Origin: Pseudanabaena sp. lw0831
GTDB lineage: Bacteria > Cyanobacteriota > Cyanobacteriia > Pseudanabaenales > Pseudanabaenaceae
Direction of reading: 5' to 3'
NCBI RefSeq assembly: GCF_016584665.1
Contig: NZ_BBJB01000031.1
Location: 1 to 40,732, forward strand
Length of the DNA stretch: 40,732 bases
Below, piece after piece: positions 10,538-15,975 of this stretch (position 1 is its first letter; each line of letters opens with the position of its first letter). The notes under the pieces were generated by a model. That model worked only from the letters and a program-made list of their open reading frames with translations. It was not told the DNA's origin and did no database searches. The translations under genes were made by a program, and so were the position numbers.

Positions 10538-11227
10538 TCATCGAAGTTTACTGTAAGTCCGATTGAGCCGATAGCCCATACTGTGAACAGTCTCGATCAA
10601 ATCTTCGTTAGCTCCTGCCGCTTTCATTTTTTGACGCAATCCACGAATATGAACCTTCACAGTATGCTCCTCTGGAGGTGACTCCAAAGACCACACATGC
10701 TCAATCATCACACTACGGCTCAATACCCGTCTTCCATTACGAAGTAGCAATTCCAAGAGAGCATATTCCTTGGGAGTTAAATGGATAGGATTTTCACCAT
10801 AGCCAACTTCGCAAGTACTTGGATTAAGATACAATTCACCCCATTCCAAAACTGGTGATGCGATTTGACTACCCCGACGTAAGAGTGCACGAATCCTTGC
10901 AAATAGCTTTTGTAAATCAACAGGTTTGACAATATAATCATCGGCTCCTACATCTAAACCGTTAATTTCATGATCGATCGTGTCGCAAGCGGTAAGCATC
11001 AAGATTGGTAAGCTGTAGCCATGCGATCGCAACCTATGGCAGAGACTAATACCATCTAATTCTGGCAACATCAAATCCAACAGCATCAGATCGTAATCTA
11101 GCGACTTTGCTCGATGCCAACCCATTTCGCCGTCAGTGGCAATATCCACAACATAACGCTCGTCGGTTAGCGCTTCTGCCAAGGTTTCGGCAAGGCGAAT
11201 ATCATCTTCAACTAGAAGAATCCTCAT
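10538..11227 (-). CDS. ccaR: CcaR, OmpR-class response regulator of chromatic acclimation
   Basis: 229 residues: receiver domain (1-115; acidic pocket E7-D8-D9, phospho-acceptor D51 in LLDLMLPELDG, K102 region in DDYIVKPVDL) and an OmpR/PhoB winged helix (about 130-225, ending ETVHSMGYRL). The sequence follows Synechocystis CcaR closely, including RNGRRVLSRS and LESPPEEHTVKVHIRGLRQK. CcaR is phosphorylated by CcaS in green light and activates phycobilisome linker genes by binding the G-box. Here it is divergent from a rod linker gene whose promoter holds a matching tandem motif, and ccaS lies 2.5 kb away. Gene order, motif and sequence all agree. Confidence 0.93.
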   Translation of the reverse strand: MRILLVEDDIRLAETLAEALTDERYVVDIATDGEMGWHRAKSLDYDLMLLDLMLPELDGISLCHRLRSHGYSLPILMLTACDTIDHEINGLDVGADDYIVKPVDLQKLFARIRALLRRGSQIASPVLEWGELYLNPSTCEVGYGENPIHLTPKEYALLELLLRNGRRVLSRSVMIEHVWSLESPPEEHTVKVHIRGLRQKMKAAGANEDLIETVHSMGYRLNRTYSKLR

Positions 11228-11298
11228 AGGATGGAATTTTTGGGAGATGCGATCAAACTTCTCTAATTCTACAAAAATTTGTTGCCAAAATTACGATT

Positions 11299-11355
11299 CC
11301 AAAAACCAAGAAATAATGGCGGCGCGAAGCGCCGCCATTATTTCTTGGTTTTTGG
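11299..11355. repeat. Perfect 27-bp-arm palindrome in the ccaR/linker divergent region
   Basis: Arms 11299-11325 and 11329-11355 are perfectly complementary with a 3-nt loop GAA. The core is GGCGGCGC-GAA-GCGCCGCC, shared with other palindromes in the window. It lies about 70 bp upstream of ccaR and about 90 bp upstream of the G-box, between divergent genes, so a simple terminator role does not fit. An insulator between the two promoters is possible. Confidence 0.9.
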
Positions 11356-11443
11356 AGAGTGGCGACAGATATGTATCACAGATTGACACTTGCGAACCCA
11401 AATAAATGTAACAGAACATCAAGATTTATTGCCCATGATCAAT

Positions 11444-11465
11444 CTTTCCGTTTTCTTTACAATTC
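11444..11465 (+). promoter_or_regulatory. Tandem CcaR-binding G-box
   Basis: Two abutting 11-mers, CTTTCCGTTTT (11444-11454) and CTTTACAATTC (11455-11465), match the published CcaR direct-repeat pattern CTTTNCNATTT at 10 of 11 consensus positions or better each. The site is 179 bp upstream of the rod linker ATG, in the region between divergent ccaR and the linker-cpcL operon. A TATCTA at 11498-11503 could be a -10 element, but the exact start site cannot be told. Confidence 0.7.
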
Positions 11466-11643
11466 CCTAACCAGTTTCCTTACTTTTGGTATGGGACTAT
11501 CTAGGTTCATCGTGAGAAAACTGTGATTGTCAGGATCGCTTCGATTTTTGCACAAACCTTGATGGACAGGTTTAATTTTTCTATTCCTTTTAATTATATT
11601 CTTTTAATTCAGAATCTATTTTTACATCAAAGAGATCTTTAAC

Positions 11644-12705
11644 ATGGTCAGTACTTTTATCAATCCACTGGTTAATCCAGAGGCAAACCTTGGGGTTAGC
11701 CAATTCGATGAAACAGCGCCGCTCCAACTTTGGCGAAATCACTCTGAATCTGATGTCGATTTAGTCATTCGCGCCGCCTATCGCCAAGTACTTGGCAATG
11801 CCTATGTAATGGAAAGCGAACGGTTGATTGTCGCCGAATCTCAACTTAAACAGGGAAACCTCTCTGTACGTGAATTTGTGCGTCAGATTGCCCTGTCAGA
11901 GCAATATCGCGCTAGATTTTTTGAGCCATGTCCACGAATGCGATTAATTGAACTCAACTTCAAACATTTGCTCGGTCGTGCTCCTGAAAGTGCTGAAGAG
12001 ATGGCCGATCATGCTCAGTTACTCGATCGCGGCGGGTTTGAGATGGAGATCAATAACTACATCGATAGTGATGAATATCATGATGCTTTTGGCGAAGATA
12101 CCGTCCCTTACTATCGTGGGCATAAATCCCAGATTGGGAAGAAAATGGTGGGATTTACGCATATGTTTCAACTTTTGCGCGGATCAGCTAGCAGCGATAA
12201 AGATCCAAGTCATCAAAATCGCTCCCGACTAAATAGTTGTATTTTCCGAAATCGTCCAAGCGCGATCGCACCACTCAAAGGCGCAGCTCATTCGCCCTAC
12301 GGCAAGCTCAAGGTTAGTGATACTGCTGCCATCCTTGCGGAAGTCTTTAAGCCCAAAACATCGGGTGTCGGGCAAACTCAATCTTGGGCGACATCGGCAA
12401 ACTTTGCTGCCGAACAAGCATTACGACAAACTCTACTCGATCAAGATCTCATCATTGAAAGTTTGCAAAAACAGCTAGCTGATCTGCGTCCATCAGCTTC
12501 AATTGGAGCCTCCTATATCAAAACTGCTTGGCATCCCACAGTTGTCTTTGTTCAAGGAGATGCTTCTGACTCGTTGTTACAACAGTCAGATAACCAGATT
12601 GAACAGATTGCAAACCTGCAATCTCAAATTGCTGATGCGCGGAGATATGCCGCGATCGGTGATGCGCGATTGAACAAATGGCGCAGCCGCGTTTTCAATA
12701 GTTAA
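11644..12705 (+). CDS. Phycobilisome rod linker, CpeC/CpcC-like, without CpcD domain
   Basis: 353 residues. The phycobilisome linker domain spans about 25-160 (DVDLVIRAAYRQVLGNAYVM, ESQLKQGNLSVREFVRQIAL, LNFKHLLGRAPES, DSDEYHDAFGEDTVPYYRG). Such linkers sit in the central hole of phycobiliprotein hexamers and set rod order. The C-terminal half is unusual: instead of a CpcD capping domain it has a Ser/Lys-rich stretch and two related segments, LQKQLADLRPSASIG (274-288) and LQSQIADARRYAAIG (325-339), the latter followed by DARLNKWRSRVF. Similar tails end some phycoerythrin-associated linkers. In Nostoc punctiforme CcaS/CcaR controls cpeC-cpcG2, so a CpeC-type assignment is attractive, but no phycoerythrin gene is in the window. 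Confidence 0.8.
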   Translation: MVSTFINPLVNPEANLGVSQFDETAPLQLWRNHSESDVDLVIRAAYRQVLGNAYVMESERLIVAESQLKQGNLSVREFVRQIALSEQYRARFFEPCPRMRLIELNFKHLLGRAPESAEEMADHAQLLDRGGFEMEINNYIDSDEYHDAFGEDTVPYYRGHKSQIGKKMVGFTHMFQLLRGSASSDKDPSHQNRSRLNSCIFRNRPSAIAPLKGAAHSPYGKLKVSDTAAILAEVFKPKTSGVGQTQSWATSANFAAEQALRQTLLDQDLIIESLQKQLADLRPSASIGASYIKTAWHPTVVFVQGDASDSLLQQSDNQIEQIANLQSQIADARRYAAIGDARLNKWRSRVFNS

Positions 12706-12713
12706 CGCGCAAA

Positions 12714-12744
12714 GTAGAACTTGGCGCTTTGCGTCAAGTTCTAC
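12714..12744. repeat. 14-bp hairpin between linker and cpcL
   Basis: GTAGAACTTGGCGC-TTT-GCGTCAAGTTCTAC: 14-bp arms with one G-T wobble and a TTT loop. No T-run follows, so it is more likely an RNA stability or processing hairpin, or a repeat of the window's palindrome family, than a terminator. It starts just after the linker stop. Confidence 0.7.
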
Positions 12745-12754
12745 CAAATCTAGT

Positions 12755-12842
12755 GATTTACGCAAAAATGACTTGAAATGCTCATTTCTGTGTAGGGGCA
12801 ATTCATGAATTGCCCCTACATTTCGCTCTTTTGCGTAAGTCC
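12755..12842. mobile_element. MITE copy 1 (~88 bp) inside the linker-cpcL interval
   Basis: Terminal inverted repeats GATTTACGCAAAA (12755-12767) and TTTTGCGTAAGTCC (12829-12842) flank a perfect 30-bp palindrome at 12791-12820 centred on GGGGCAATTCATGAATTGCCCC. A second copy with the same ends and core lies at 20520-20610. It has no coding capacity. The ends resemble those of small non-autonomous elements common in cyanobacteria. Confidence 0.75.
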
Positions 12843-12874
12843 TACTCAATTTAAAGTTTTTTAGGAGAATATTT

Positions 12875-13612
12875 ATGTCAATTCCATTATTAGCGTACAA
12901 ACCCTTATCCCAAAATCAGCGCGTGGCTGGATTTGAAGTCGCAGGTGATGAGCAACCTCGGATTTATAACACCGACAATCTGCTATCTGGCTTTGAGCTA
13001 GATCTCTTGATCAGCGCCGCCTATCGTCAAATCTGCAACGAACAACAGATGCTAGAGAGCCATCGCCAAGTAAACTTAGAGTCTCAGTTGCGATCAGGAC
13101 AGATTACGGTGAAAGGATTCATTCGCGGCTTGGTATTATCTGATTCCTTCAGAAGATTGACCTTTGATAGTAATAACAACTATCGCTTTGCAGAGATTTG
13201 TATCCAGCGAATTCTTGGTCGTAATGTCTATAGCGATCGCGAAAAGATTGCATGGTCGATTGTGATTGCGACTAAGGGCCTCCAAGCTTTTGTTGACGAT
13301 TTACTGAATAGCGAAGAATATCTAAGGAACTTTGGCGATAGTATCGTTCCTTATCAACGTCGTCGTATCCTGCCTCAGCGCACTAAGGGCGAAGTTACCT
13401 TTGCTCACATGGCAAGATATGGTGCTGACTATCGCGATCGCTTACCCAAACAAGTCTTTAAAGGCAATAAAGGCGCGGCGAAATTGGATTATGTACGTTG
13501 GGAATGGCAAAAGAACCCACCTGCAATTGTCAGCAAAATTGGTGCAGGCCTTACCTATGCTGGTGCTGGTTTCGTTGGTTTATTGCTATTAGGAGTTTTA
13601 ATCGGGTTGTAA
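12875..13612 (+). CDS. cpcL: CpcL (CpcG2-type) membrane-anchored rod linker
   Basis: 245 residues. The CpcG family signature is clear: [96 protein letters not shown]. The linker domain spans about 40-165. The C-terminus (about 222-245, [20 protein letters not shown]) is a single hydrophobic helix, which defines CpcL/CpcG2 as opposed to core-binding CpcG1. CpcL tethers coreless rods to thylakoids and passes energy mainly to photosystem I, with NDH-1. A strong AGGAGA ribosome site lies 7 nt upstream of the ATG. It follows the rod linker and the pair is probably one CcaR-driven operon. Confidence 0.92.
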
Positions 13613-13634
13613 ACCTGATAATTTATAAACAATT

Positions 13635-13665
13635 TTAAAAAAGCCTTGCTTTGCAAGGCTTTTTT
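13635..13665 (+). terminator. Terminator between cpcL and ccaS
   Basis: TTAAAAAAGCCTTGC-TTT-GCAAGGCTTTTTTAA: perfect 14-15 bp arms, GC-rich top, six Ts at the end. It is symmetric, so it can stop transcription from either side. It separates the CcaR target operon from ccaS, limiting positive feedback on the kinase. Confidence 0.85.
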
Positions 13666-13692
13666 AAAGTCCTTTTCAGGATGGTTGGGAGT

Positions 13693-15975
13693 ATGACCAG
13701 TTTTTATGCGATCGCAATTTGCATTAGCCTTTTAATACTGCTAGTAGGCTTCTTTTTATTTGCAAGAGAAGGAAATCGCCGCCGCCGCACCGAAAAATTA
13801 TTGCGACAGCAAAGCGATCGCGAAAGACTGGTTACGCAAATTGCACATCAAATTCGGGAATCTCTTAATCTTGATGAAGTCCTCGCCACCACAGTCAAAG
13901 AAGTTCAACTATTCCTACAAGCCGATCGCGTCTTGATCTATCGCCTATGGGACGATGGCACTGGTAGCGCCATTCACGAAACAGTCTTACCGCCACATTC
14001 CAGCATTTTGGGTCAAATATTTCCCGAAGAAGTTTTCCCTCAACAGTATCATCAGGCTTACTCTTTGGGTAAAACCCGATCCATTGCCAACGTTGAACAG
14101 GCAGATGTAGAATCCTGTCTTGCCGATTTTGTGAAGCAGTTTGGGGTTCAGGCTAAATTAGTAGTACCAATTATTCAAGAAAATCGCAAAAGCAATGAAA
14201 GTAATGATTCAGAGACTTCTCAGCCTTATCTCTGGGGATTATTAATTGCTCATCAATGCATTCGTCCGCGTCAATGGCAAGACTGGGAAGTGGAACTAAT
14301 GAAACAGCTAGCCACTCAAGTAGCGATCGCCATTCAACAATCAGAGCTATATAAACAACTTCAACATCTTAATACTCAACTCGAACAGCGAGTCCAAAAG
14401 CGTACCGTCGAACTTGCTAATGTTAATGCTTCCCTACGAGATGAGATTTCAGAACGGCAGCGTACTGAAATTGCCCTGCGTCATACCAATGAGACCCTGC
14501 AAGCTCTCGTCAGCGCATCTCCCCGTGCAATTTTTATGCTAGATTTGGAAGGAAGAGTTAAAATCTGGAACCCTGCCGCTGAGCAGATGTTTGGTTGGAA
14601 AGAAGATGAGGTGATCAATCATCCTAGTCCAATTTTACTAGACGATCAATTAGAAGATTGTACGACCCTCCAAAATAGCGTTCTTCAAGGCAGAACCTAT
14701 ACTAGATTGGAAATGTCTCGCTGCAAAAAAGATGGATCGGCGATCGACATCATTTTTTCGGCAGCCCCTTTACCCGACACAAATGGACATATTAGCGGAC
14801 TCGTCGCAGTGATCGCAGATATTTCCGAACAAAAAAGACAAGCAGAACAGGTGCGGCTATTGCAATCTGTCGTAGTCAATACCAATGACGCGGTTATAAT
14901 TACAGAAGCAGAACCTATCGACGCTCCTGGCCCCAGAATTCTCTACGTGAATGAAGCATTTACAAGAATTTCTGGCTACCAACCCGAAGAAGTATTAGGA
15001 CAAACACCAAGGATTTTACAGGGGGCAAAAACCGATCCAGCCCAACTACAGAAAGTTCGCAATGCGCTCGCCCTATGGGAATCTGTCACCGTCGAAGTGA
15101 TTAACTATCGCAAAGATGGAACTGAATTTTGGAATGAATTTAGTCTAGTGCCTGTCGCTAATGCCAAAGGCTGTTACACCCATTGGATTGCCGTCCAGCG
15201 CGACACCACTGAGCGCAACCGCCATAATGAAACTTGGCTAGCCCTTGAACGAGAGAAAGAACTAAGTGCTTTAAAAACGCGCTTTTTTTCAATGGCATCC
15301 CATGAGTTTCGCACGCCATTAAGTACAGCTCTAGCAGCTGCACAGGTTCTCGAAAACTCTCAACATGAATGGGATAATACTGAAAAAAGATTGCGTAACT
15401 TACATCGTATCCAAGATTCAGTCAGGAATATGGTGCAGTTACTCGATGACATTTTGACAATCAATCGTGCTGAGACAGGGAAACTCGCATTTAATCCTAA
15501 ATCTTTAGCGTTAGAGGCTTATTGTCGTCATTTTGTTGAAGAGATGCAACTCAGTGCGGGAAATCTGCACCAACTCACTTTTAGTTGTCAAGGCAAGTCT
15601 CAGCATGTTTGTCTGGATGAAAAGTTATTGCGATCGATGCTCTCTAATTTACTTTCTAACGCTATTAAATATTCTCCACAGGGTGGGAATATATCTCTTT
15701 CTCTAGAGTTCCTCTCAGACAATCTCATAATTAAAGTTCAAGATCAAGGGATTGGTATTTTGTTGGAAGATCAAAAGCAATTGTTTGAACCATTTCATCG
15801 AGGTAAGAATGTCAAAATTATCTCTGGTACTGGCTTAGGTCTAGTTGTCGTCAAAAAATGTGTGGATTTACATCAAGGACATATTTCCGTCAGTAGCGAA
15901 GTTGGACGAGGAACAACCTGTGTAATCACTATTCCCTTAAAATCCAAGCTGCTTAATGGGGCTGGCTTGTTATAA
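13693..15975 (+). CDS. ccaS: CcaS, green/red cyanobacteriochrome histidine kinase
   Basis: 760 residues from this start. Order: one N-terminal membrane helix (about 4-23), bilin-binding GAF (about 45-215), coiled-coil linker, PAS (about 270-380), PAS with LOV-like YRKDGTEFWNEF (about 395-510), HisKA (H537 in MASHEFRTPL), HATPase (about 620-745; N box LSNLLSNAIKYSPQ, GTGLGLVV). The GAF chromophore cysteine is C142 in SCLADFVKQFGVQAKLVVPI, nearly identical to Synechocystis CcaS. Green light is expected to activate phosphorylation of CcaR. Start choice: an upstream TTG at 13651 lies inside the terminator hairpin and ATG 13681 has no clear ribosome site; ATG 13693 has AGGA upstream and gives the same N-terminal length as Synechocystis CcaS. 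Confidence 0.94.
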   Translation: MTSFYAIAICISLLILLVGFFLFAREGNRRRRTEKLLRQQSDRERLVTQIAHQIRESLNLDEVLATTVKEVQLFLQADRVLIYRLWDDGTGSAIHETVLPPHSSILGQIFPEEVFPQQYHQAYSLGKTRSIANVEQADVESCLADFVKQFGVQAKLVVPIIQENRKSNESNDSETSQPYLWGLLIAHQCIRPRQWQDWEVELMKQLATQVAIAIQQSELYKQLQHLNTQLEQRVQKRTVELANVNASLRDEISERQRTEIALRHTNETLQALVSASPRAIFMLDLEGRVKIWNPAAEQMFGWKEDEVINHPSPILLDDQLEDCTTLQNSVLQGRTYTRLEMSRCKKDGSAIDIIFSAAPLPDTNGHISGLVAVIADISEQKRQAEQVRLLQSVVVNTNDAVIITEAEPIDAPGPRILYVNEAFTRISGYQPEEVLGQTPRILQGAKTDPAQLQKVRNALALWESVTVEVINYRKDGTEFWNEFSLVPVANAKGCYTHWIAVQRDTTERNRHNETWLALEREKELSALKTRFFSMASHEFRTPLSTALAAAQVLENSQHEWDNTEKRLRNLHRIQDSVRNMVQLLDDILTINRAETGKLAFNPKSLALEAYCRHFVEEMQLSAGNLHQLTFSCQGKSQHVCLDEKLLRSMLSNLLSNAIKYSPQGGNISLSLEFLSDNLIIKVQDQGIGILLEDQKQLFEPFHRGKNVKIISGTGLGLVVVKKCVDLHQGHISVSSEVGRGTTCVITIPLKSKLLNGAGLL

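Follow-up and report, generated by a model that had tools for sequence, protein, structure and literature searches.

In a 40,732-nt stretch of the genome of Pseudanabaena sp. lw0831 (NZ_BBJB01000031.1, hereafter the window), the genes ccaR, a phycobilisome linker, cpcL and ccaS, together with a CcaR box, form one locus (Table 1). Judged from its sequence, this locus is very probably a working CcaSR module for chromatic acclimation of type 1 (CA1) in a phycoerythrin-free Pseudanabaena: CcaSR and cpcL lie in one cluster, which has no phycoerythrin or phycoerythrocyanin target. The CA1 module is of a known kind; its form varies here in that a phycoerythrin-type linker is kept behind the CcaR box after phycoerythrin loss. 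All four genes lie where an earlier reading of the same sequence (the original prediction) had placed them and encode the expected Pfam domains, ccaR reading leftward and the linker, cpcL and ccaS rightward.

By analogy with known systems, CcaS would bind phycocyanobilin, phosphorylate CcaR in green light and dephosphorylate it in red. Phosphorylated CcaR would then bind the tandem box and switch on the linker and cpcL, perhaps with some read-through into ccaS, and CpcL would anchor a phycocyanin rod to photosystem I (PSI). Green-light control of a rod-type, PSI-directed phycobilisome, as originally proposed, is thus expected by homology through cpcL, but that proposal overlooked the phycoerythrin type of the linker.

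The CcaSR module and its targets

CcaS comprises a membrane helix, a GAF domain, two PAS domains, HisKA and HATPase (Pfam) and is encoded near ccaR. The solved structures nearest to its GAF domain by sequence are 8k9o and 7ckv (labelled RcaE). Cys146 (window position 14116), followed by Leu147, aligns with the chromophore cysteine of 7ckv, which bears out the earlier claim that this residue is kept, and Glu117 (14029) and Lys159 (14155) align with the Glu and Lys of the protochromic triad. We take that triad to be E217, L249 and K261 in RcaE numbering, with E217 corresponding to Glu117 and K261 to Lys159, consistent with the 7ckv alignment. A Leu neighbors the chromophore Cys in both CcaS and RcaE (PMC9415938). 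His541 is also present, and the protein is expected to be a green/red photoconverting, green-light-active kinase. It carries two PAS domains, versus three in the relative G017 (Pfam); by eye, the missing domain is the third, and the change lies in a short repeat that both PAS2 and PAS3 have at their ends. Two PAS domains are also the arrangement in Synechocystis CcaS, and removal of both from that protein led to tighter or even reversed responses (PMC5121610, accessible part). Of the 40 genomes searched, 16 contain a CcaS match with an E value of 1e-80 or below, or 14 once the weaker G002 and G029 are excluded; 11 of these 14 have CpeB and three do not (the window genome, G000, as well as G010 and G015).

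CcaR is an OmpR-type regulator with Response_reg and Trans_reg_C domains (Pfam), 96-98% identical to CcaR of G017, G010, G008 and G019, and Asp51 is in place, as first proposed. The tandem G-box CTTTCCGTTTTCTTTACAATT (11444-11464, + strand) lies 5' of the target operon, 179 nt before the linker start. Counting by eye, and with the next base included, 3 of its 22 positions differ from the Synechocystis G-box as given in the accessible part of PMC8256508. The degenerate pattern CTTTNCNNTTTCTTTNCNNTT has a single zero-mismatch match across the 5.26-Mb assembly, the window box itself. With up to two mismatches the pattern has 39 genome matches, versus 37 for a reversed-pattern control, so that near-matches elsewhere mean little. 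In the window, a stricter pattern with up to three mismatches gave one match (0.42 expected), the site itself having one mismatch, and at least one match occurred in 33 of 100 shuffles; the weight of the box therefore rests on its position and conservation. All 22 target upstream regions counted contain a box with two mismatches or fewer, a result equalled by none of 100 shuffles in each; these were single-base shuffles, a lenient control in A+T-rich DNA, and the count left out the fetched CcaS loci G058, G181, G269, G016, L208 and L220. A wider CcaR regulon was considered and rejected, there being no second exact box in the assembly. The one-mismatch match that was inspected (C55:55455-55475) falls inside a Uma2-type gene.

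CpcL contains one PF00427 domain (Pfam) and matches the solved CpcL 8hfq_n over residues 1-242, whereas CpcG chains match only to about residue 200. Its C-terminus is hydrophobic (19-residue hydropathy peak of 2.0 from residue 227), unlike the CpcG of the same genome; a hydrophobic helix replaces the C-terminal part of CpcG. In the tree of linker domains, CpcL has CpcL-type proteins from other CcaSR loci as its neighbors, and the CpcG of its own genome stands elsewhere.

Table 1. Features of the locus in the window
Feature	Position	Strand	Evidence
ccaR, OmpR-type response regulator, 229 aa	10538..11227	-	open reading frame, Pfam, Asp51
Inverted repeat, perfect, 28-bp arms, between ccaR and the CcaR box; small repeat element or terminator	11298..11356		
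Tandem CcaR box (G-box), CTTTCCGTTTT then CTTTACAATT	11444..11464	+	pattern scan; Synechocystis G-box (PMC8256508, accessible part)
Orphan phycoerythrin-type linker, 353 aa	11644..12705	+	Pfam, tree, predicted structure
cpcL, rod-membrane linker, 245 aa	12875..13612	+	Pfam, PDB match, hydropathy
Terminator-like hairpin GCCTTGC-TTT-GCAAGGC with T tract, cpcL/ccaS gap	13640..13665	+	comparison of 8 loci
ccaS, 764 aa from ATG: membrane helix, green/red GAF, 2 PAS, histidine kinase	13681..15975	+	Pfam, PDB alignment

Phycobiliproteins and the loss of phycoerythrin

The original prediction had left it undecided whether the locus is of a CpcL-only type or part of a phycoerythrin system. This question is now largely answered, since no phycoerythrin genes were found in the assembly (rated 99.97% complete) and the sites where relatives carry them are closed up. 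The genome holds 16 PF00502 matches, with names assigned from sequence and from BLAST comparison with relatives: two cpcBA pairs (on contigs C98 and C51), apcAB, further core-type subunits, an ApcE frame and several weak phycobiliprotein-like genes. For both CpcA proteins, phycocyanin is the best PDB match, and phycoerythrocyanin alpha comes third from the end of the 34 listed sequences; with only two cpcBA-type pairs and no pec genes, the genome does not have the content of CA7. The suggested search for cpeBA and cpcBA accordingly returned two cpcBA operons and no cpeBA. A CpeB query, the best PDB matches of which are phycoerythrin beta chains, was matched at 81% identity or more in 20 of the 40 genomes, but in the window genome only at the level of CpcB, 52% at best. 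Neither cpeA, cpeB, pebA, pebB, cpeC nor cpeD was found in the assembly. PF05996 bilin reductases number zero in the window genome and in G034 (85% complete) and at least one in each of the other 38 genomes. A strain lacking cpeBA and pebAB would be unable to make phycoerythrin.

Three sites were compared with relatives. In G017 and G008, cpeZ, cpeY, cpeA and cpeB lie between a gene for a 406-aa methyltransferase-like protein and ugpC; the distance between these neighbors is 319 nt in the window genome, on one contig (C57), and 352 nt in G010. The same two relatives carry pebB-pebA between cpcB1 and a 304-aa gene, presumably glyQ, whereas pebB-pebA is missing from contiguous sequence in the window genome; G010 keeps a 120-bp bilin-reductase piece at this site. 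The third cluster, in G008, comprises a cobL-like gene, a 161-aa gene, a HEAT-repeat gene, cpeC, cpeD, cpeE, cpeS, cpeT and cpeR. Contig C93 of the window genome has the first three of these, followed by cpeE without approximately its first 45 codons (the 3' part remains at C93:146-778), and ends 145 bp further on. A joined cpeR/cpeS/cpeT query matched at 70-74% in G017, versus a best cpeS-like match of 40% and a best cpeT-like match of 43% in the window genome; no cpeR was present among the matches listed for it (to about E 1e-17). None of its 11 PF00427 matches, all accounted for, is cpeC or cpeD. The cpeSTR genes alone may be hidden in an assembly gap.

For the comparison loci, PDB or NCBIfam served to check CpeB, CpeY, PebA, PebB and PcyA, and Pfam to check CpeS and CpeT; CpeR has no model in Pfam or NCBIfam. 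We take the names CpeR, cpeC, cpeD, cpeE, cpeZ, ugpC, cobL, aplA, glyQ, apcAB, ApcD/F, cpcE and cpcF from known sequences, operon position and BLAST between loci, and the labels cpeD and cpeE among linkers are loose.

The cpeZYAB deletion has the same footprint and the same cpeZ remnant in the window genome (L249, C57) and in G010 (L250, C22). Nine genes combined place the window genome nearer G017, which keeps cpeZYAB (218 versus 107 and 64 quartet sites), and one explanation is that the deletion was shared through recombination. The remnant of the linker cluster (L041, C93:1-2354) retains open HEAT-repeat and 160-aa genes next to the 5'-truncated cpeE, with cpeC and cpeD gone. Elsewhere in the genome (L040, C117:5961-8027), a 163-aa phycobiliprotein-like gene adjoins one for a 440-aa protein with two PF00427 domains. 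In G008, a 517-aa protein encoded beside pcyA near cpc2 (L156:8807-10360) is in part 53% identical to CcaR and is possibly another light-related regulator.

The linker preceding cpcL

The linker has one PF00427 (PBS_linker_poly) domain, at residues 34-158, which corresponds to domain A of its relatives. In the predicted structure (mean pLDDT 62, pTM 0.42), the PF00427 bundle is confident, the arm is poorly predicted and two long helices (249-289 and 311-351) form the tail; only the domain and the two tail helices are usable. The predicted fold of the domain is close to that of the CpcC linker domain 3pru_C (TMt 0.96). Neither the linker nor its tail had a match in PHROGs.

In a tree of 86 linker domains, domains A and B group with CpeC (support 0.91), away from CpcC, CpeD/CpeE and CpcG/CpcL; the one exception is the A domain of L246, which stands beside this group (support 0.14). 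The likeness originally drawn to cpeC-cpcG2 of Nostoc punctiforme ATCC 29133, in which we take the gene order to be cpeC-cpcG2-cpeR1, is therefore apt, the linker grouping with CpeC and not with CpcC. Canonical CpcC consists of one PF00427 and one CpcD domain (PMC10696076, accessible part); Pfam detects no CpcD domain (PF01383) in the linker, which sets it apart from CpcC and also from CpeC, although its domain groups with the latter, as CpeC of G008 has both domains. The PF00427 domain near the CpeC clade and the tail with the motif IGxAR(x)NKW are those of a CpeC-related family. By sequence, the linker is a member of this family, which is found by cpeR in phycoerythrin operons, and not an ordinary phycocyanin linker. 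Both members of the proposed target pair of rod linker and CpcL are present, but the rod linker is of a kind known from phycoerythrin operons; it has a helical tail instead of CpcD, and carries one linker domain, against two in close relatives.

The two-domain form (A and B with the same tail, 587-599 residues) occurs in G008 (589 aa), G019, G016, G058 and G032; domain A with the tail is found in the window, G017 and G010, and domain B with the tail in G013, while G028 and G043 have single domains that fall with B in the tree. Scanning named genomes yielded 59 loci with the linker tail, of which L190-L196 are from Pseudanabaena-like and two other genomes. Among the remaining 52 (L197-L248), the fetched stretch, in some cases short, includes a cpeR-like gene in 43; four of the nine without one (L224, L229, L244 and L247, but not L200, L231, L232, L236 and L248) carry other cpe genes. 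In a phylum sample, the tail was present in 7 of 386 genomes, and the six besides the window genome all have CpeB at 72-90%. Tail-bearing linkers occur in 11 of 116 genomes, eight of them with CpeB; those without are the window genome, G010 and G032, the last being 74% complete and carrying cpeC-D-E-S-T-R on the same contig as the linker.

Two side observations concern the surroundings of the linker. In L230, L235 and L237 (a Hormoscilla and two Symploca metagenome-assembled genomes, MAGs), a second tail-bearing protein of 692-772 aa, in which no linker domain was detected, follows the linker. In the window, a second perfect inverted repeat (12791-12820, 15-bp arms) lies in the gap between the linker and cpcL; together with the repeat at 11298-11356 it flanks the linker gene in both gaps, and the two resemble small repeat elements.

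Operon forms and probable direction of change

Relatives carry the operon in several forms. The form cpcL-ccaS is found in G022, G012, G005, G015 and G004, and cpeE-cpeR-cpcL-ccaS in G001. A two-domain linker is added in G008 and G019 (cpeE-cpeR-linker-cpcL-ccaS) and in G058 (cpeE-linker-cpcL-ccaS, interspersed with small unassigned frames), whereas the window, G017 and G010 share the form with a one-domain linker, linker-cpcL-ccaS. G043 has cpeC-cpeE-cpeR-cpcL-ccaS, LEGE 07170 (L220) has ccaR / cpeC-cpeE-cpeR-linker-cpcL-ccaS, and in G016 the locus is split over contigs. Compared with close Pseudanabaena relatives, the locus has neither linker domain B nor cpeE-cpeR, and its CcaS lacks the third PAS domain. 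The leader upstream of the linker in G010 contains, by eye, an apparent cpeE start and the C-terminal end of cpeR.

Most likely, the window operon derives from a CA2-like operon combining phycoerythrin genes and cpcL. The simplest derivation would be loss of cpeE, cpeR and linker domain B from a cpeE-cpeR-two-domain linker-cpcL-ccaS operon, with deletion of the phycoerythrin genes elsewhere in the genome. Given the larger CA2-like operon of relatives and the loss of phycoerythrin here, we therefore read the linker gene as a still-wired phycoerythrin-type linker behind the CcaR box. A strict tie between the one-domain linker and phycoerythrin loss was rejected, as G017 has both CpeB and the one-domain form.

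Alternative readings

Two points weigh against a working CA1 module. The terminator-like hairpin between cpcL and ccaS makes their co-transcription doubtful. Its core, GCCTTGC/GCAAGGC, recurs in six of the eight Pseudanabaena loci compared, with one base changed in G010, and in the window the ccaS ATG lies 15 nt past the T tract; transcription of ccaS may thus rely on read-through. The start of ccaS was moved to the ATG at 13681 because the mechanical TTG start (13651) falls within this hairpin. A scan for sigma-70-like promoters, which is uninformative for an activator-dependent promoter, gave two sites, both on the minus strand (shuffle mean 4.5), and an Rfam scan gave nothing at gathering scores. 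In addition, pcyA, required for chromophore synthesis, was not found in the assembly (PF05996, no matches). This gene lies upstream of cpcB2, by 2.7 kb in G008 and 0.8 kb in G017, and contig C98 of the window genome begins 793 bp upstream of cpcB2, so that an assembly gap is the simplest and most likely reason for its absence. The assembly nevertheless lacks at least one expected gene, and the absence of others must therefore rest on the closed sites. The missing pcyA, like the smaller number of CcaS PAS domains and operon genes than in relatives, could indicate decay of the CcaSR locus as a whole, with switching lost, but we regard this as unlikely: ccaS, ccaR and cpcL are open, with ratios of nonsynonymous to synonymous substitutions (dN/dS) of 0.02-0.13 versus relatives (a recent loss calls for caution here too), and two PAS domains are the Synechocystis arrangement (PMC5121610, accessible part). 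Still less probable, to the point of being barely credible, is that phycoerythrin is encoded elsewhere in the strain and tuned by this locus as in CA2. The linker family does occur mostly in phycoerythrin operons and the assembly has gaps, but at the sites that hold cpeZYAB and pebBA in G017 and G008 the sequence here is contiguous and has neither cluster, the truncated cpeE is not accompanied by cpeC or cpeD, and cpeR, cpeS and cpeT have no close match. Phycoerythrin genes elsewhere in the genome were rejected on the CpeB, bilin reductase and linker searches together with the closed sites.

Within the CA1 reading, the fate of the linker can be understood in two ways. It may be only a leftover, perhaps transcribed with cpcL but idle after phycoerythrin loss and on its way out, for which we see about an even chance. 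In G010, the second phycoerythrin-less relative, the linker frame from the ATG is shifted and stops after 36 codons while cpcL and ccaS are open, although this frameshift comes from a draft genome (MAG) and could be an error. In G015, which lacks CpeB, cpcL is the only gene between ccaR and ccaS, and CpeB accompanies every other tail-bearing linker of the 386-genome sample. The dN/dS of the linker is 0.075 versus G008 and 0.18 versus G017, but the 5'-truncated and very likely dead cpeE has 0.055 versus G008; the low value for the linker therefore says little about use after the loss, which may be too recent, and dN/dS was rejected as proof of use. On the other hand, the linker frame and the box are intact in the window, and its dN to the linker of G008 is 0.036, versus 0.052 between the linkers of the phycoerythrin-containing G017 and G008. 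Alternatively, the linker has been recruited to phycocyanin and in green light would link its hexamers together on the CpcL rod, so that the PSI rod would be longer than in Synechocystis CA1 or tuned differently; we consider this possible but less than probable. An intact gene reading in the same direction as cpcL, downstream of the single exact CcaR box, the predicted closeness of its domain to CpcC and the occurrence of the one-domain form in the phycoerythrin-containing G017 point this way, whereas the evidence for a leftover and the lack of the CpcD domain found in canonical CpcC (PMC10696076, accessible part) and in CpeC of G008 point the other. On balance, the evidence tilts toward a relic. 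We propose only tentatively, and with some doubt, that a one-domain phycoerythrin rod linker has been kept under green control and helps phycocyanin hexamers to assemble on the CpcL rod, as a hybrid PSI antenna.

Comparison with known systems

A search of the open-licence literature (titles and abstract openings) returned no report of a strain without phycoerythrin whose CcaSR operon has a phycoerythrin-type linker, and a hybrid PSI antenna with a phycoerythrin linker is not described for other CA1 strains in the searchable part of that literature. In Synechocystis sp. PCC 6803, the model of CA1, CcaS, CcaR and a G-box likewise control cpcL, which changes 15-fold, and phycocyanin is the sole rod pigment (PMC12461855, accessible part); its CcaS also has two PAS domains (PMC5121610, accessible part). 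The window differs in the phycoerythrin-type linker that precedes cpcL and in having no gene between cpcL and ccaS, whereas the Synechocystis cluster includes sll1472 (PMC12461855, accessible part). Nostoc punctiforme ATCC 29133, with phycoerythrin and cpcL, similarly places a CpeC-type linker and cpcL under CcaSR (same source and part), but in the window genome no cpeR or phycoerythrin was found and a helical tail replaces the CpcD domain of the linker. Geminocystis sp. NIES-3708 (CA2; PMC4424290) shares CcaSR and a light-regulated operon with a phycoerythrin linker; its operon includes cpeC and cpeR but not cpcL, whereas the window has cpcL and no cpeR. The cpeR-near linkers in the cpe operons of Nostoc, Mastigocoleus, Symploca and others have the same PF00427 domain or domains and IGxAR(x)NKW tail but sit with phycoerythrin genes, while that of the window lies in a CcaSR operon without them.

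The CA types are defined by the antenna genes under CcaSR control, and conversion between types has to be inferred by comparison. Here, different stages can be seen within a single genus: a CA2-like operon that includes cpeE-cpeR, one that lacks these genes, phycoerythrin loss, and cpcL alone. The locus can be viewed as a snapshot of one antenna program eroding into another; with its linker one can test cleanly whether phycocyanin can make use of a phycoerythrin linker, and its naturally shorter CcaS provides a native test of the role of a PAS domain. The closest counterpart is Pseudanabaena sp. UWO311 (L190 = L107/G008), which has the same box sequence and the same order of ccaR, linker, cpcL and ccaS, a CcaR that is 98% identical and a CpcL that is 93% identical over 229 residues, but which differs from the window in having cpeE and cpeR ahead of a two-domain linker, a longer CcaS of 894 aa and phycoerythrin genes.

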